DNA of 21,106 nt from a virus. The notes beneath the pieces were generated by a model that did no database searches, was not told where the DNA came from, and saw only the letters and a list, made by a program, of their open reading frames with translations. A program made the position numbers and the translations under genes. Where the stretch lies: IMG/VR virus record IMGVR_UViG_3300000553_000326, positions 3,455-24,560 of that record. One strand, written 5' to 3'. Positions 1-6,169 of this stretch are shown here, piece after piece (position 1 is the first letter of the stretch; each line of letters starts with the position of its first letter).

Positions 1-5
1 GGAAT

Positions 6-848
6 ATGTATGTCTACGCCCCGAATTGCTTCGTAGAATGTGAAGACGTCACCGACATGTCCGCTGTGACTGATGAAAGTTCTAACGGTGGATTCCGCAC
101 CCTGTCGCTGAACTCGGTCGCAGACGTAGCCACCTGGAGCCGGAAAATTTCCTCACATTACGGCATCTTGACCGGTGAGATCTCACCCACCATCAACATA
201 ATCGTCGGGAATGTGAACCTACCATCTAAGTTCAAGTTCATCTCACTGGACGAGGCATTGGCGTGGTGTTCCACCACCAAGACCCCGGTGGTCATCACCG
301 CGCAGAAGAACGTAGCGATGTCCTCGCCTATCAATCTGCATGGCGCCGACATTACCATTCGTCTGGCGACCTTCAACTTAGACATCACAGCGATTGTCAC
401 TAACTACGGCAAGCTCACCATCGACGGGCAGACCAGTGGGAATATCACCTCCGTCAGTCGGAAACTCTATAATTATGGCACCCTTAAGATCATGAACCTC
501 ACCAGCATGACCGCCGTGGTCACAATGCTGGGTGGTATCGCCCACTTCACCAACGTGGTGTTCGCTGGGTCAGACGACAATATCGGCTTCAGTGACAACG
601 CCCAGGCGGTCATCTACCATGACACCTGCAGCTATACCAACACGGCCTACGTGGCTAATCGATCCAGCGGGTTCGGTGAGTTCATTCTGCGGTCAACCGG
701 CGGGGCCACACCCACCACCGGGAAATGGTATCAGGGGACGATCTTCCAGCGGACTAGCCCTGCCTCCGGTGCCCCTGCGGTCTTCTATGCCACCGCTTCC
801 GGTGTCGGTGTCGCTGCGGCTTGGAAGTCCAACGGGAACTTGGCCTAA
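6..848 (+). CDS. Tail-spike / tail-fibre-like structural protein, possibly partial at 5' end
   Basis: At least 280 residues. I do not recognise a named family, but residues ~90-215 are rich in short beta-strand repeats with Asn, Thr and Gly turns (for example NYGKLTIDG, NYGTLKIMN), the look of a right-handed parallel beta-helix as in phage tail spikes. The C-terminal ~60 residues are Gly/Ala/Ser/Thr-rich. The frame is open to the window edge, so the ATG at 6 may be internal and the protein longer. The stop overlaps the endolysin start (TAATG), which implies translational coupling and places the gene at the end of the late structural block. A receptor-binding or depolymerising role is inference from position and composition; no catalytic residues could be assigned. 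Confidence 0.6.
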   Translation: MYVYAPNCFVECEDVTDMSAVTDESSNGGFRTLSLNSVADVATWSRKISSHYGILTGEISPTINIIVGNVNLPSKFKFISLDEALAWCSTTKTPVVITAQKNVAMSSPINLHGADITIRLATFNLDITAIVTNYGKLTIDGQTSGNITSVSRKLYNYGTLKIMNLTSMTAVVTMLGGIAHFTNVVFAGSDDNIGFSDNAQAVIYHDTCSYTNTAYVANRSSGFGEFILRSTGGATPTTGKWYQGTIFQRTSPASGAPAVFYATASGVGVAAAWKSNGNLA

Positions 849-1366
849 TGGCCTCCTTCGTGGAAGCCCTCCCATGGGTCCTCAAGCATGAGGGCGGGTG
901 GAGCGATGACCCGGCGGACCCGGGCGGCGCCACCAACTTCGGCATCACCCTGGCCGTGGCCCAGCAGCACGGGATTCCCGATAAGGAAGCCCTGCGCACC
1001 ATCACCCAGGACCAGGTAGCCGCGATCTATCACAAGGACTATTGGCGCTTCGACGGGGTGGATGACCAGCAGGTTGCCACGAAGCTCTTTGACCTGGGGG
1101 TCAATATGGGTGTTCGCTCGGTGGTGCGCTTGCTTCAGGACGGGCTCAACACGCTTGGGGCGTCTTTGGAGATCGACGGCCGACTGGGCCCCCAGACCCT
1201 AATGGCGGTCAACTCTGTGGCTCCAGCCAAGATGCTCCAGGTCCTCGTCGATGAGGCCACCAAGTACTACCAGACCATTGTTGCTAACCGTCCCGCCTCA
1301 CAAAAGTTCCTGACCGGGTGGCTCAAGCGAGCCGCTGCCCTCCCACCTATTCCAGCCGCGGGTTGA
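848..1366 (+). CDS. Endolysin, GH108-type N-acetylmuramidase with C-terminal peptidoglycan-binding domain
   Basis: 172 residues, a usual length for the family. The N-terminus holds the GH108 signature HEGGWSDDPADPGG followed by TNFGIT; Glu15 is the expected catalytic acid, and the enzyme would cut the glycan backbone of peptidoglycan. Residues ~95-165 resemble the PG_binding_3 domain (LQDGLN...DGRLGPQT). There is no signal peptide or TM segment, so release would depend on a holin; two membrane-protein candidates follow within 1.4 kb. The ATG at 848 is chosen because it overlaps the upstream stop as TAATG and starts the family's usual N-terminus. An upstream in-frame start at 821 would lie inside the previous gene and add nine unrelated residues. 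Confidence 0.92.
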   Translation: MASFVEALPWVLKHEGGWSDDPADPGGATNFGITLAVAQQHGIPDKEALRTITQDQVAAIYHKDYWRFDGVDDQQVATKLFDLGVNMGVRSVVRLLQDGLNTLGASLEIDGRLGPQTLMAVNSVAPAKMLQVLVDEATKYYQTIVANRPASQKFLTGWLKRAAALPPIPAAG

Positions 1367-1368
1367 CC

Positions 1369-1725
1369 ATGCCTGACCACCGCCAACACCCACCACAGAA
1401 GCCATGTCCTGTTGAGGACGGGGAGGACTGCTGTATGCCAGAGCGCCGGAAATGGTCAGCTGAGTTCACCATCAACGTCCCGTCGGTCCTGGCCATTATT
1501 GGCCTGACGGTAACCCTCACAGGGGCCCTCATCCTGAATGACCGTCGCCAGACAGTCACGGAGGGTCAGGTAGAGGTTCTAAAGGCCGTAGACAAGGGCA
1601 TCATCGACCACGCCCAGGCTGTGGAGCAGGTAGCCGTGCGGGACCGTTCCGAGATGCGGGACGACATCAAGGAAATCAAGGCAACCGTCAACAAGATCGC
1701 TGATATTCAGCGCCAACGGAGGTAG
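1369..1725 (+). CDS. Single-TM coiled-coil lysis-cassette protein (i-spanin or holin-like candidate)
   Basis: 118 residues. A charged N-terminus is followed by one membrane segment at ~39-57 (VPSVLAIIGLTVTLTGALIL) and then a charged, heptad-rich helix to the end. This N-in/C-out layout fits an inner-membrane spanin, but small holins and antiholins can look similar. Two starts are plausible. ATG 1369 follows the endolysin stop by 2 bases and has no clear Shine-Dalgarno; ATG 1435 has GGAGG at 1422-1426 with 8-base spacing and gives a 96-residue form lacking a Cys-containing leader. I saw no separate outer-membrane lipoprotein in alternative frames. The location between the endolysin and the holin-type gene supports a lysis role. 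Confidence 0.6.
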   Translation: MPDHRQHPPQKPCPVEDGEDCCMPERRKWSAEFTINVPSVLAIIGLTVTLTGALILNDRRQTVTEGQVEVLKAVDKGIIDHAQAVEQVAVRDRSEMRDDIKEIKATVNKIADIQRQRR

Positions 1726-1727
1726 TC

Positions 1728-2039
1728 ATGTCAGTCCTTTACGTTACCGAATTTTCGCAGCGCGGTCAGGATGGTCGTAACTTCACAATCGACAGCATGA
1801 CCCTTGAGCCACCTCTGGCGGAGCAGACGGTGGCCATCGGAGCTGGGTCTGTCCAGTCCAACGCGCTCAACGCAGCCACCACCTACGTGCGGGTACACGC
1901 CGATGCCATCTGTAGCATCGCCTTCGGTACCAACCCCACGGCCACCGCTACCACCAGGCGGATGGCGGCCAACACCACCGAGTACTTCGGAGTCCCCAAG
2001 AACCAAGCATTCAAGGTCGCCGTTATCACTAACACCTAA
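1728..2039 (+). CDS. Small structural-type phage protein, function unknown
   Basis: 103 residues, preceded by GGAGG five bases before the ATG. The sequence alternates hydrophobic and small polar residues (AEQTVAIGAGSVQSNALNAA, TTYVRVHADAICSIAFG), suggesting an all-beta fold. From memory, proteins of this type occur in podovirus-like genomes near tail or capsid genes, but I cannot name a function. There is no signal peptide or TM segment. It begins 2 bases after the previous stop and is followed by a small basic protein 13 bases downstream, so it belongs to the same late transcript. A virion accessory or decoration role is possible but not shown. Confidence 0.65.
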   Translation: MSVLYVTEFSQRGQDGRNFTIDSMTLEPPLAEQTVAIGAGSVQSNALNAATTYVRVHADAICSIAFGTNPTATATTRRMAANTTEYFGVPKNQAFKVAVITNT

Positions 2040-2052
2040 AAGGAGGTTCTCC

Positions 2053-2235
2053 ATGCCTACCGTCAAGAAGTCTGGGTCCTTCAAGGGTAAGAGCAACAAG
2101 CTCGGGTACGGCGGACGGTCCGCTCAGCTCAAGGCGGCAGGGGTCCCCGGTGGGGTCATCGGGAACCTCGCCCGTAAGGCCCAAGCAGCCCCCGGCCAGA
2201 AGAACTACCACGGCAAGAAGAAGGGCGGTAAGTGA
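2053..2235 (+). CDS. Small basic Lys/Gly-rich protein, function unknown
   Basis: 60 residues, strongly basic, opening MPTVKKSGSFKGKSNKLGYG and ending in KKKGGK. A perfect AGGAGG at 2041-2046, six bases before the ATG, fixes the start and predicts strong expression. The stop overlaps the holin start (TGATG). The composition suggests nucleic-acid or acidic-protein binding, for example a minor DNA-associated virion protein, but there is no motif to prove it. It lies in the late rightward block between the beta-rich small protein and the holin. Confidence 0.7.
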   Translation: MPTVKKSGSFKGKSNKLGYGGRSAQLKAAGVPGGVIGNLARKAQAAPGQKNYHGKKKGGK

Positions 2236-2774
2236 TGGCCGCCTTCGATTGGAAAGGCACCATTGGAAAGGTGGCACCGTGGATCGCGACAGCACTTGGA
2301 GGACCAGCGGCCGGGCTTGCGATCGATGCCGTGTGCAAAGCTGCAGGCCTCGCTCCATCGCTGGAAAATGCGCAGAAGGCGGCGGAGCTGGCAGCAGCTG
2401 GGTCCCTTACTGGCGAGCAGTTCCTTGCGCTGCGCCAATCGGAGGATACCTTCAAGCTCAAGATGATGGAAATGGGCTACAAGCAGATCGCGGACCTGGA
2501 GGAGATAGCTTACAAGGACCGTGACTCAGCCAGGAACCGTGAGATCCAGACCAAGGACATGACCCCACGGATCTTGGCCTATGGGGTAACGATCGGATTC
2601 TTTGGGCTGATGATTTTCATGATGAAATGGAATGTACCTGCGGCAAACAAAGACATGTTGAACATCATGTTGGGCGCCCTTGGTGGTGCCTGGGTCAGCA
2701 TTGTCAGTTATTACTTTGGAAGCAGCGCTGGTTCCGCCAAGAAAGACGACACCATCAACGCCGCTGTAAAGTAA
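2235..2774 (+). CDS. Holin, three-TM GTA-type family
   Basis: 179 residues. The central part matches the GTA_holin_3TM family pattern as I know it: GSLTGEQFLALRQSED, then KDRDSARNREIQTKDMTPRI, then two hydrophobic helices and the tail YYFGSSAGS. Membrane segments lie at ~14-30 (weak), ~112-131 and ~142-162. The protein would form inner-membrane lesions that free the endolysin encoded 870 bases upstream. The start at 2235 overlaps the previous stop (TGATG); a GTG at 2232 would add only one Met. It is the last rightward gene of this block and ends 3 bases from the stop of the converging leftward operon, with no terminator hairpin visible between them. Confidence 0.88.
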   Translation: MAAFDWKGTIGKVAPWIATALGGPAAGLAIDAVCKAAGLAPSLENAQKAAELAAAGSLTGEQFLALRQSEDTFKLKMMEMGYKQIADLEEIAYKDRDSARNREIQTKDMTPRILAYGVTIGFFGLMIFMMKWNVPAANKDMLNIMLGALGGAWVSIVSYYFGSSAGSAKKDDTINAAVK

Positions 2775-2777
2775 TTA

Positions 2778-3560
2778 CTACCACCACCTGAGCTGCTCGT
2801 TGCCCTTCTCCCTGAGGTCTCGGAGGAGGGCCATGAGCTTCACTGGCTCCATATTGGCCGGGCCTTGATTCATGCAGCCTGACGGATAGTGGCCACCGTG
2901 CCAGATCTCATTAGCCAGCGGCAGGTGCTCGTCGTAAATGTGTGCTGATACTGCCGTGTGATAAAGGGCCCCGGCCTCGGCCTCCACTGAATATTCTCGC
3001 AGAAGACCTGCCACGAGGTGCCCCACCATGCTGAAGTTGAAGACATCGTAGGGGAACCCCAGCCAGAAATCGTTGGACCTCATGAAGGCGTGGACATCCA
3101 GGACCCCACCACGCAGCTGGAACCACAAGGCCACCGTGCAAGGGATATCCTTGCTCGGCTGCGGGTTGGGGGTCCAGATGGTGAGCCCCGCCTGGCGGCT
3201 CATCGGATCCTTGACGAGGGTCTCTACCACGTAGTCGAGCTGGGCGGCAATGCGTGGCCCGTAGGCCCCGGCGAAGCTCTCACCGTCGTCGCTGAATTTT
3301 AGTAGTTGACTGTTGTAGGGCACAACGCCTTCCACCGAGTCATCCCCCGACAGGATCCAGTAGGCCTCAGCGGCCATGAACCGATAGTTGAGCTTCCGCT
3401 CCTGAATGGTCAGGACTGGACGGTGCATGTCCACGATCGACGTCAGGTGGGGCAACTCCGTGGTGCCCATACCCCGCGGGGCCACCCGTTGGCCGCGGTA
3501 GAGAAGCATGCCCAGGGCCCGAAGCCAAGCATCATTGGCCGATTGTGCAGTGAGATTCAC
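2778..3560 (-). CDS. Thymidylate-synthase-family enzyme with dCMP-type active site (dCMP hydroxymethylase or methylase)
   Basis: 260 residues. TS landmarks are in order: Glu65 and Trp68 (AEAYWIL), GAYGPR (98-103), SRQAGLTIW, the catalytic Cys141 in DIPCT, RSNDFWLGFPYD (161-172) and HIY (207-209). The Asn that TS uses to recognise dUMP (E. coli N177) is Asp172 here. This is the change known from T4 gp42 dCMP hydroxymethylase and from engineered TS that accepts dCMP. The enzyme should therefore transfer a one-carbon unit from methylene-tetrahydrofolate to C5 of dCMP; whether the product is hydroxymethyl or methyl cannot be read from sequence. The GTG start overlaps the upstream stop (GTGA) and follows AAGGAG by five bases. 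It is the last gene of a four-gene nucleotide module. Confidence 0.85.
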   Translation of the reverse strand: MNLTAQSANDAWLRALGMLLYRGQRVAPRGMGTTELPHLTSIVDMHRPVLTIQERKLNYRFMAAEAYWILSGDDSVEGVVPYNSQLLKFSDDGESFAGAYGPRIAAQLDYVVETLVKDPMSRQAGLTIWTPNPQPSKDIPCTVALWFQLRGGVLDVHAFMRSNDFWLGFPYDVFNFSMVGHLVAGLLREYSVEAEAGALYHTAVSAHIYDEHLPLANEIWHGGHYPSGCMNQGPANMEPVKLMALLRDLREKGNEQLRWW

Positions 3561-4471
3561 AGGAGCTCCTTGATGACTTCAGTGAGGCGGTAGGGCTCAT
3601 TGGCGTGGAAGCGTTTCCAGAATTGAGGATGCTCGACCATGACATCGTCGAGACCCAACTGCTGGAGGGTCTGGTGGGCCTTCTGCCCCAGCGCAATGAC
3701 CCGCTGATGCGGCTGGAAGGTAGAATGCTTATTGAGTTGGTCGGCGTTGACCCACATCAGCTCCTGCTCGCTGATGTCGGCCTCCAAAAGCTGCTGCGTA
3801 ACCCACTGGCTGCATCCGCCGTTGCTGAAGCTAGCGAAAGGCCACTGATAGTAGGCATCATTTGGTTTGTGCTGGGCGAATGATTCACCCACCAACACGA
3901 CCTTGGCCTCGAGGTTACCAGCGGACCTCACCAGGGCGGGGTGAAGTGGGGTCCTGAGCTGTGGCAGAAGGGTGGAGTGCTCCAATCGGACGTCCTGGTA
4001 GGTGTAGTTGTGGAGATAGACCGGCAGGTCCGTTAGCCCGTGCGCCGCGTAGCGTCGGTAGACAGCTCGTAGTTGGGCCTCGTCAGTGAGCATCTCAGCC
4101 GCCCGCCGCTTGTTGAAGTTAGCCACAGCCACCTCTTCACCAGGCAGACACATCACAACCACGGCCCCGCAGCGCATGGCGAGACGGTCTAGCATCCGGG
4201 CCGTGGGTCTCCCGAACCTGAGACTGCCCCCACGGAAGACCTCACCGTACGGTTGCTCAGACAGCCAGCAGCGGTCAAGAACAACGTCCTGGTAACCCAG
4301 GAGCGCGGGTAGCAGGGCCTCCACGTAGCAGCGGGCAAGACCTGGCCCGATGGCTGGCAAATTGCTGAAGTGGATGTAGGCCGCCCTTGTGTGGTGGGCA
4401 AACTCTCGAGCAGCAGTTGTTTTACCCCCGCCGTCCGGGCCCTCAAAGATTGTGACTGTCCTAGACGTCAT
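3557..4471 (-). CDS. P-loop nucleotide kinase fused to a uracil-DNA-glycosylase-like domain
   Basis: 304 residues. The N-terminal half is a thymidylate-kinase-type P-loop domain: Walker A GPDGGGKT at 11-18, DRCWLSE at 66-72 (the DR-x-W/Y-x-S/A signature) and an Arg-rich lid near 121-140. It probably phosphorylates a deoxynucleoside monophosphate, perhaps the modified dCMP made by the next gene. Residues ~189-304 resemble the UDG superfamily: VVLVGES near 191-197, a PF-S-x-G-x-S-x-W stretch, VIALGQKA at 258-265 and HPQFW at 281-285. The acidic residue of classical UDG motif 1 is not evident, so base excision is doubtful. ATG 4471 is preferred because Walker A then falls at the usual distance; it overlaps the MazG-like gene by 11 bases. 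Confidence 0.75.
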   Translation of the reverse strand: MTSRTVTIFEGPDGGGKTTAAREFAHHTRAAYIHFSNLPAIGPGLARCYVEALLPALLGYQDVVLDRCWLSEQPYGEVFRGGSLRFGRPTARMLDRLAMRCGAVVVMCLPGEEVAVANFNKRRAAEMLTDEAQLRAVYRRYAAHGLTDLPVYLHNYTYQDVRLEHSTLLPQLRTPLHPALVRSAGNLEAKVVLVGESFAQHKPNDAYYQWPFASFSNGGCSQWVTQQLLEADISEQELMWVNADQLNKHSTFQPHQRVIALGQKAHQTLQQLGLDDVMVEHPQFWKRFHANEPYRLTEVIKELL

Positions 4472-4967
4472 CACGGCACAGCCCCTCAAGTACTTGGTCG
4501 TGGGCATTGGTAAACAGGAGGCGGTTATACTGGTGCTCATACAAAATCATGAGGGTCATAGGTGGCACCCACCCCATGGGCTTGATCAGGTCGACCCTGT
4601 GTCCGCGCTTGCCGACCCCGGGGATCTTGTCCATGTTGGCTCCATGGACGTCGGACCAGAGCTCCTCCCAGGGCAGGCCCAGCATGATGGCGGTCCCCTT
4701 GGCAAAGTAGACGAGGTCAATCAGGGCATCGGCCTGGGCAGCGAGGTCTTGGAGCTCAACCCCCTCCCTGAACTCATCGAGCTCTTCCTGCATGCACTCC
4801 AACCGCTCGAATAGCTTCCGACGGGTGAGGTGGGCGGGAAAGGGTGGTCGAGTGAGGTGACCAAATCGCGCCAAGAACTGCTCGACGTCGAGGGTCTCCT
4901 GGTCGACGTAGGTGGGGCCACCTGGGTCCCTGAAGAACACGCTCTTAAACCACGACTTGAGACTCAT
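4461..4967 (-). CDS. MazG/PRA-PH-like all-alpha NTP pyrophosphohydrolase
   Basis: 168 residues. The metal-binding pattern of the all-alpha NTP pyrophosphatases is present: EELDEF at 61-66 and QADALIDLVYF at 78-88, then a helix ending VHGANMDKI. The family cleaves (d)NTPs to NMP and pyrophosphate. Next to a dCMP-type TS homologue the likely substrate is dCTP, which would remove unmodified dCTP and feed dCMP to the modifying enzyme, as T4 gp56 dCTPase does; the substrate is inference. The C-terminal ~45 residues (PMGWVPPMTLMILYEHQYNR) extend beyond the core. ATG 4967 overlaps the methyltransferase stop (ATGA) and has GGAGGG four bases upstream, better than a start at 4988. Confidence 0.82.
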   Translation of the reverse strand: MSLKSWFKSVFFRDPGGPTYVDQETLDVEQFLARFGHLTRPPFPAHLTRRKLFERLECMQEELDEFREGVELQDLAAQADALIDLVYFAKGTAIMLGLPWEELWSDVHGANMDKIPGVGKRGHRVDLIKPMGWVPPMTLMILYEHQYNRLLFTNAHDQVLEGLCRDDV

Positions 4968-5707
4968 TTGACCCTCCGGCAAACCCACAGGTTGTTGCGG
5001 GCCTGGTCAGGGAATAGTGGGCCGAAGATGTTCGAGATGGCGTCACTGTCGAAATACTCCTCGAGCATTGCCGCCACCTGGCCCACCGCCTTGTCCGGGT
5101 GCTTCTTGATGTGCTTGATGTCCATGAAGGTGCCGAACCGCCGCTCCACCACGAAGCCAGCCTTTTCAGCCGCCTTCTGAAGCTCGGGGACGGTGTACTC
5201 GTGGATGTGGTTGGCAGCGTGGCGCTTCCCGTCGTAGCAGGGGGTCGACATCAGCATGACACCGCCGACCTTCAGGCTGTCGAAACAGGCCTTGAGCAGC
5301 TTGGCTCCGAGCTCCACACGCATGTGCTCGATGACCTCGTAGTGGACCACGACGTCGAACCTTTCAGGCTTGGCCTTGAGCAGCTCCTTGTAGCGCTCCA
5401 CGAAGTTGAACTCGCCATGGAAGGTGAGTCGCTGGGACGCCGAGGGCTTCAGCTTGTTCAGGTCCACACCCACGTAGGTGTTGACGTGGGCCGCAGCCCC
5501 ACCAGTCAGGATCTTGCTGAGGGGCCGGTCCTCACCGCAACCAATCTCGAGCACGTCGTGGTTGGGCTTGACGAAGCGACGGGCGAAGGACCAGCGAAAA
5601 AAGTGGGCGGAGTAGTCCCTGGCAAGGGTTCTACCATGTCCAGCCTCCCTGAGCTGTGTCTGATCATAGTCACGGTCATCACGGTGTTTCTCTTTACGCT
5701 GGACCAT
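4964..5707 (-). CDS. Class I SAM-dependent methyltransferase
   Basis: 247 residues. SAM-binding motif I is DVLEIGCGED (51-60), followed by an acidic loop (YVGVDLN, 78-84), an aspartate-bearing strand FDVVVHYEVIEHM and a post-strand loop GGVMLMSTPC. The last two look like small-molecule or methyltransferase_11/23-type enzymes. There is no NPPY/DPPY or PC catalytic motif of DNA N6-adenine or C5-cytosine methyltransferases, so direct DNA base methylation is not indicated. Its stop overlaps the MazG-like start, so it is co-translated with the nucleotide module and could act on a modified nucleotide or on a modified base in DNA; this is inference. The ATG follows AGGAGG by five bases and directly abuts the upstream stop. 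Confidence 0.82.
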   Translation of the reverse strand: MVQRKEKHRDDRDYDQTQLREAGHGRTLARDYSAHFFRWSFARRFVKPNHDVLEIGCGEDRPLSKILTGGAAAHVNTYVGVDLNKLKPSASQRLTFHGEFNFVERYKELLKAKPERFDVVVHYEVIEHMRVELGAKLLKACFDSLKVGGVMLMSTPCYDGKRHAANHIHEYTVPELQKAAEKAGFVVERRFGTFMDIKHIKKHPDKAVGQVAAMLEEYFDSDAISNIFGPLFPDQARNNLWVCRRVK

Positions 5708-6169
5708 CTAGTCCTCCTGGGTGGGGTGTGTTCTGAGCGGTGTGAACAGAGCCCGGTCGATGGGCCAGTCACATTTGATTCGTTGTTGGAACTGATTGCT
5801 AGGCACTACGCACCTGGGATCTGCACCCCATTCTGCAGAGCACTTAGTCTCATCTTGAAAAGTCAGAAGAAGATTGTTGGATTTGTTCCAGCAGTTTACC
5901 TGTCGCGAAACAAACCGACAATTCGTCGGGCTGTAACCCTTGGTGTTGTCGATGCGATCGATGTCAAGGCCATACTTATAGCCATTGATAATTGCCCACT
6001 TCACAAAGTTAACACTACCGGAGCGCCCTGACCACTCTGAGCAGAGTGTGATGCCCTTCGCCCCGTAGTCCTTCCAAGATCTGTGCTTGGGCGAATTACA
6101 ACGGCCGTGGATCCCAGCCCAAACTGCTTGGAGCTTGAAGATGAGGTCCACGACCGCGTCGGAGGTCAT
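5708..6169 (-). CDS. HNH homing endonuclease-like protein
   Basis: 153 residues. The N-terminal part has the free-standing phage HNH pattern: a W-x-G-I-H-x-R-C opening, YGAKGITLCSEW, GLDIDRIDN (67-75) and GYSPTNCRFVS (78-88). The C-terminal ~45 residues (ETKCSAEWGAD...R-x-x-x-DWPIDRAL) look like the helix-turn-helix DNA-binding module often found after such nucleases. It would nick or cut DNA and spread itself between phages. The gene is visibly richer in A+T than its neighbours and fits without spare sequence between them: its ATG lies one base after the upstream stop and its stop abuts the methyltransferase ATG. It looks like a recent insertion into the operon. GGAGG lies nine bases before the ATG. 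Confidence 0.82.
   Translation of the reverse strand: MTSDAVVDLIFKLQAVWAGIHGRCNSPKHRSWKDYGAKGITLCSEWSGRSGSVNFVKWAIINGYKYGLDIDRIDNTKGYSPTNCRFVSRQVNCWNKSNNLLLTFQDETKCSAEWGADPRCVVPSNQFQQRIKCDWPIDRALFTPLRTHPTQED

Follow-up and report, generated by a model that had tools for sequence, protein, structure and literature searches.

The window analysed here, a stretch of 21,106 nucleotides that comprises bases 3455-24560 of a 24,560-base IMG/VR record, carries on its minus strand a coupled unit of four genes encoding a methyltransferase (MTase), a MazG-like pyrophosphohydrolase (PPase), a nucleotide kinase and a homologue of thymidylate synthase (TS), and the very probable task of this set is to produce hydroxymethyl-cytosine precursors that let the phage DNA escape host restriction enzymes. 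Neighbouring genes of the unit overlap by 4 to 11 bases as read from the sequence, with a GTGA shared by the TS homologue and the kinase (3557-3560), an 11-base overlap of the kinase and the PPase (4461-4471) and an ATGA shared by the PPase and the MTase (4964-4967). An earlier note on this DNA had described a trio of TS homologue, kinase and pyrophosphatase joined by overlapping starts and stops; the three genes and both of their junctions are real, but the unit is not complete as a trio, as the MTase gene upstream is joined to it by the third overlap. The features are collected in Table 1. An alternative in-frame ATG of the kinase at 4540 would overlap the PPase gene by 80 bases. An HNH endonuclease gene, probably of the homing type (5708-6169, minus strand; phrog_3377, E 4.1e-37), directly abuts the start of the MTase gene.

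Table 1 Features of the four-gene unit, in window coordinates
Feature	Position	Strand	Basis
TS-family protein, predicted dCMP 5-hydroxymethylase, 260 aa, GTG start	2778..3560	-	PF00303, E 1.3e-20
Codons Asp138 to Cys141, predicted water-activating Asp 3 residues before the catalytic Cys	3138..3149	-	Alignment and PMC6400193
Codon Asp172 (E. coli N177, T4 D179), cytosine-selecting residue	3045..3047	-	Alignment; role from PMC8670742, PMC5175136
Two-domain nucleotide kinase, 304 aa from ATG 4471	3557..4471	-	AlphaFold2, Foldseek, phrog_761
Kinase C-terminal domain, uracil-DNA glycosylase family 4/UdgX-like fold	3557..3946	-	Separate AlphaFold2 model, Foldseek
MazG/PRA-PH-like all-alpha NTP pyrophosphohydrolase, predicted to lower dCTP, 168 aa	4461..4967	-	PF01503, E 1.8e-11
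Class I SAM methyltransferase, UbiG-like, 247 aa; proposed hmC-decorating enzyme	4964..5707	-	PF13489, E 4.8e-13

For whole-genome searches, a near-identical record of 38,287 bases (L010, also G001), which covers window bases 1-21085 at 99.99% identity, stood in for the 24.6-kb record. The other half of this record holds a P22-like structural module of terminase, portal (P22 type, E 7.1e-155), scaffold, P22 coat protein and tail accessory factor, and since its left end carries the large terminase gene, the record is probably a near-complete podovirus genome. Lysis and P22-like structural genes (window 1-2774 and G001:1-18050) are encoded on the plus strand and run toward the replication and modification genes, which are on the minus strand. 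Searches of the 38-kb record found no dCMP deaminase, ThyX or DHFR, and no T4-type beta-glucosyltransferase (beta-GT) with a model built from T4 and its relatives; these absences are among the points that weigh against the hydroxymethyl reading.

The TS homologue was expected from the earlier note to retain Cys141 and to carry Asp172 in place of the Asn that selects dUMP, and alignment to E. coli ThyA and T4 gp42 bore this out. Cys141 occupies the position of the nucleophile (E. coli C146, T4 C148), Thr142 lies at E. coli H147 and Asp172 lies at E. coli N177 and T4 D179. This Cys-Thr-Asp set is invariant in 107 unique relatives (one partial reading frame was set aside from the alignment), so Asp172 is not a chance substitution; E58, Y94, R126, R166, S167 and D169 are invariant in the same relatives. 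Positions 147 and 177 are those that best separate the TS of C-modified DNA from the TS of unmodified DNA (MetaGPA, PMC8670742). The residues at these two positions are Thr and Asp in T4 gp42, and Pro and Asp in AXL1, a relative of the 5-methylcytosine (5mC) phage Xp12. The window protein thus departs from canonical TS in having Asp at 177; in addition, the best NCBIfam TS equivalogs score no more than 59 bits, where the cut-offs are 108-576. The C terminus reads EQLRWW, without the PHPGIKAPVAI end of ThyA and so without the TS-type folate-closing tail, as expected of a T4-type dCMP hydroxymethylase. A further candidate marker to separate methylases from hydroxymethylases, E. coli W80, was dropped: it is kept in T4 and falls in an alignment gap in both AXL1 and the window family.

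The earlier note had proposed either hydroxymethyl-dC or methyl-dC in the phage DNA. Comparative evidence lends good support to the replacement of cytosine through a dCMP-type TS homologue aided by a kinase and a pyrophosphohydrolase, and the choice narrows to hydroxymethyl because of Asp138, the nearest solved structure, the beta-GT genes beside the same TS in relatives and the lack of a phage DHFR. In T4 dCMP hydroxymethylase, solved with both substrate and folate bound, the added water is activated by Asp145, which lies three residues ahead of the Cys; the D145N protein is inactive, and TS has Leu at that place (PMC6400193). Asp138 takes the T4 D145 position, and Asp is found there in 143 of 143 relatives (L105 reads KDCPCT), in T4 gp42 and in MilA, while the residue is Asn in AXL1 and Leu in E. 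coli ThyA. The hydroxymethylation signature proposed from the T4 work joins Asp or Glu at this position to Ser or Thr two residues before the catalytic Tyr (PMC6400193), and in this second half the window protein differs, reading Gly98-Ala-Tyr100 at T4 S94/Y96 with Gly98 invariant in alignment A2. This difference counts against the hydroxymethylase reading, as does Gln123 at the place of E. coli R127, which binds phosphate. The nearest PDB structure by profile is MilA, a CMP 5-hydroxymethylase of mildiomycin biosynthesis (5b6d, 5jnh; 7.6e-34, compared to 8.8e-23 for the best TS), which shares with the window protein the Cys-Thr pair, the Asp three residues before the Cys and the Asp at the base position. 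The ribose preference of MilA is due to Lys133 and Ala176 (PMC5175136); since the window protein has Arg122 and Ser162 at these positions, it is of the deoxy type and its predicted substrate is dCMP rather than CMP. Given the invariance of Asp138 and MilA as the closest solved structure, these residues point to hm-dCMP, and not methyl-dCMP, as the most likely product of the TS homologue.

Neighbouring genes in related loci are consistent with this. From IMG/VR, 91 unique TS loci were recovered, and the 66 with enough flank for neighbour counts held a MazG-like gene in 61, a kinase in 50 and a dCMP deaminase in 61; MTase family 1 was present in 38, MTase family 2 in 16, a T4-type beta-GT in 4 and neither an MTase nor a beta-GT in 8. 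The beta-GT, which accompanies the TS module in some marine phages, directly follows the same TS in L034, L037, L039-L041 and L170-L175 (several of these are the same contigs), scores 3.8e-16 against PF09198 in L034, and overlaps the TS gene by an ATGA-type junction in 4 of 4 loci. Glucosylation requires a hydroxymethyl group, and a beta-GT after the TS therefore supports 5-hydroxymethylcytosine (hmC) as the product of this TS subfamily. Hydroxymethylation also yields THF and requires no DHFR, and DHFR was absent from 18 of 18 related records; this argument is a weak one because of the host DHFR.

A different product would follow if the TS homologue were an Xp12-type dCMP methylase, making 5-methyl-dCMP by hydride transfer and leaving plain 5mC in the DNA. 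A single N177D change, according to work cited in PMC8670742, is enough to convert TS to a dCMP methylase, and Mesyanzhinovviridae phages related to Xp12 also hold TS, MazG and dCMP deaminase together. The AXL1 cluster (ENDO3c protein, MazG, TS, dCMP deaminase and DHFR) resembles the window in the Asp at 177 and in its adjoining MazG and TS genes. However, with AXL1 as the model, the residues around the Cys are not of the Xp12 type, since AXL1 has Asn three residues before it and Pro after it where the window protein has Asp138 and Thr142; moreover, AXL1 carries its DHFR in the same cluster as its TS, unlike the relatives of the window phage, and the AXL1 region that was read has no such MTase or kinase.

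A restriction phenotype is available for Stenotrophomonas phage AXL3, whose cluster, like that of the Pseudoxanthomonas phage PW916, has the same gene order and domain make-up as the window (MTase-PPase-kinase-TS, ending in AXL3 and PW916 in a dCMP deaminase that the window lacks at that place). Identity of the two clusters to the window is 45-46% for TS, 45-49% for the kinase and 72-73% for the MTase. AXL3 is a siphophage with a ThyX elsewhere in its genome, whereas the window phage has P22-like structural genes and its 38-kb record is without ThyX. The AXL3 TS is 45% identical to the window TS, so its phenotype bears on the window phage only indirectly. In PW916 the kinase gene (L002:2346-3272) is unannotated in GenBank, and tblastn recovers it in one piece at 49% identity over 98% of the query. 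AhdI and Eam1105I recognise the same site. AXL3 DNA resists 35 of 37 restriction enzymes, the two that cut both having A/T-only sites, and KpnI and Eam1105I are among those that fail (PMC7504290), while Xp12 DNA, in which C is 100% 5mC, is digested to completion by KpnI and AhdI (PMC7653180). The AXL3 base is thus probably not plain 5mC, which together with the residues around the Cys makes an Xp12-type methylase improbable for the window phage.

The authors of the AXL3 work assigned these genes to thymidylate synthesis and did not identify the DNA modification (PMC7504290). Under that annotation the TS homologue would convert dUMP to dTMP and the kinase would be a dTMP kinase, in line with the database names thymidylate synthase and thymidylate kinase and with the thymidylate-kinase fold of the kinase. 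We regard an ordinary thymidylate supply as very improbable, given that Asp replaces the dUMP-selecting Asn in all relatives, that ThyX gives AXL3 another source of dTMP (PMC7504290), that AXL3 DNA resists enzymes with G or C in their sites and that beta-GT genes neighbour the TS in relatives. Judging from these comparisons, hydroxymethyl-based substitution of cytosine in the DNA of the window phage is likely. The "thymidylate synthase/kinase" genes of AXL3-like phages thereby become a testable prediction of 5hmC-based cytosine replacement, which would explain the resistance of AXL3 DNA to nearly every enzyme with G or C in its site.

The kinase was described in the earlier note as a P-loop enzyme of an architecture different from that of T4. 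Its Walker A motif reads GPDGGGKT, and its AlphaFold2 model (pLDDT 88.8) resolves into two confident domains, of which the N-terminal one matches thymidylate kinases in Foldseek (E 8e-6). By sequence it reaches 20.6 bits against TIGR00041 (cut-off 83.25), and a search of the PDB with the whole kinase sequence returned proteasome P-loops only, none better than E 0.26. A separate model of the C-terminal 130 residues (pLDDT 84) gave uracil-DNA glycosylases (UDGs), mostly of family 4 and UdgX, as all of the best 39 Foldseek matches (top E 2.6e-4, probability 1.00); by sequence, PF03167 matches this domain at E 0.11 and profile UDG matches lie at E 0.8. Because in alignment A4 its Asn and HP motif are invariant but the acidic position of the GE motif is occupied variously (D, Q, L), a role in binding a base rather than cutting it is plausible. 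On the structural models, the fusion of a kinase to a UDG-like domain is a new element. Glycosylase folds recur beside cytosine-modifying TS genes: AXL1 gp65 (L009:4327-4809), an ENDO3c protein that is HhH glycosylase-like, adjoins MazG and TS, and the window kinase bears the UDG-like domain. The all-alpha NTP pyrophosphohydrolase of the earlier note was also confirmed, with the acidic residues E61, E62, E65, D80 and D84 invariant and with 3nl9, a putative NTP pyrophosphohydrolase, as the nearest PDB entry by profile (1e-15), followed by DR2231.

Compared to the T4 hmdCTP pathway (gp42, the dCTPase gp56, gp1 and beta-GT), the window unit has the same predicted sequence of reactions. The window TS shares with gp42 the Cys-Thr pair, the equivalent of Asp179 and the Asp three residues before the Cys, the window pyrophosphohydrolase matches gp56 in role, and the T4 beta-GT is matched in sister loci. 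The likeness to T4 that the earlier note had drawn therefore stands for the roles and fails for the descent of the parts, as the kinase combines a thymidylate-kinase fold and a UDG-like domain, and the pyrophosphohydrolase belongs to the MazG/PRA-PH-like kind. The window unit differs further from T4 in having an MTase instead of a glucosyltransferase and in forming one coupled operon, in a phage with P22-like head genes.

The MTase, whose best profile match is the O-methyltransferase UbiG (PDB 1.6e-7, NCBIfam 2.2e-8), belongs to one of two families that are about 30% identical to each other and occur on over a hundred phage contigs. Among unique loci long enough to show it, TS was present in 51 of 51 for family 1 and in 48 of 49 for family 2, so that pooled it lies alongside the MTase in 99 of 100 loci where it would be visible. 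When prokaryotes were scanned at one genome per species, family 1 turned up on three MAG contigs only, each with the same cassette. These contigs (L165, L166 and L167; 34-54 kb, in MAGs of Lentisphaera, Chromatiales and Betaproteobacteria) are probably phage contigs binned with bacteria. The MTase is also the most conserved protein of the set, with a median identity to the window protein of 72%, compared to 51% for the kinase, 50% for TS and 45% for the PPase. No MTase locus held a beta-GT and no beta-GT locus (L170-L177) held an MTase among the matches listed, in which beta-GT loci are only a handful. The MTase and beta-GT labels track the TS phylogeny (the four states need 13 changes, compared to 57 in shuffles), so the loci are not independent.

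From its linkage, the MTase has about an even chance of acting on hmC, either on the hydroxymethyl group or on something built on it. In the more specific form, which is possible though on the doubtful side, the MTases would O-methylate hm-dCMP, hm-dCTP or hmC in DNA to give 5-methoxymethylcytosine or a similar methylated hmC derivative; a literature search for methoxymethyl with cytosine or hydroxymethylcytosine found none, which is weak evidence of novelty. It is also quite possible, if somewhat short of even, that hm-dC substitution holds and the MTase modifies a host RNA, protein or metabolite, with its linkage to the cassette due to shared descent. This would fit labels that follow the TS tree, the many substrates on which UbiG-kind class I MTases act and the 8 of 66 TS loci with neither MTase nor beta-GT. 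Against it, the MTase is kept where the TS has diverged to about 40% identity and where the gene order has changed (MazG-MT-KIN-TS in L103, L104, L143 and L167), two families as distant as these occupy the same place, and the MTase is conserved well above the TS and never found with a beta-GT.

Built on the observed gene content, coupling, diagnostic residues and gene linkage, the pathway that we infer, in which the enzyme activities, the complete substitution of C and, most of all, the MTase step are predicted from sequence, would lead from the cassette to a cytosine-substituted phage genome by a T4-like route. The MazG-like enzyme would convert host dCTP to dCMP, supplying substrate and removing a competitor; the TS homologue would produce hm-dCMP, which the kinase would phosphorylate toward hm-dCTP, its UDG-like domain perhaps binding the modified pyrimidine; and the phage family-A polymerase would insert the modified nucleotide in place of dC. 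The coupled MTase would then most likely methylate the hydroxymethyl group or a derivative, taking the slot of beta-GT in relatives. Cytosine replacement based on a TS homologue is a known kind of system, and the new part is a near-obligate MTase in place of a glucosyltransferase. In the MetaGPA modules, TS (Asp177), PRA-PH and dCMP deaminase co-occur on modified contigs, the decorating enzyme is a 5hmC carbamoyltransferase, and the main text is without the words methyltransferase and kinase (PMC8670742). The conserved MTase is the likely source of a cytosine hypermodification not described before. Should the methyl ether prove true, it would be a new DNA base and a small uncharged shield replacing glucose, against both restriction enzymes and hmC-specific defences, and its enzyme a possible tool to protect or label 5hmC.

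Other genes lie beside the cassette in related loci. L144, with an Asp-type TS and with neither MTase nor beta-GT, has a PLP-dependent enzyme (PF00291; 6063-6995), and L149, of the same description, has a C5 DNA methylase (PF00145; 6457-7992); both are possibly other hmC decorations. A conserved phrog_13881 protein (E about 1e-50) occurs near the cassette in the MTase-less loci L127:3063-4067, L140:3736-4740, L141:9145-10029 and L146:3864-4964.
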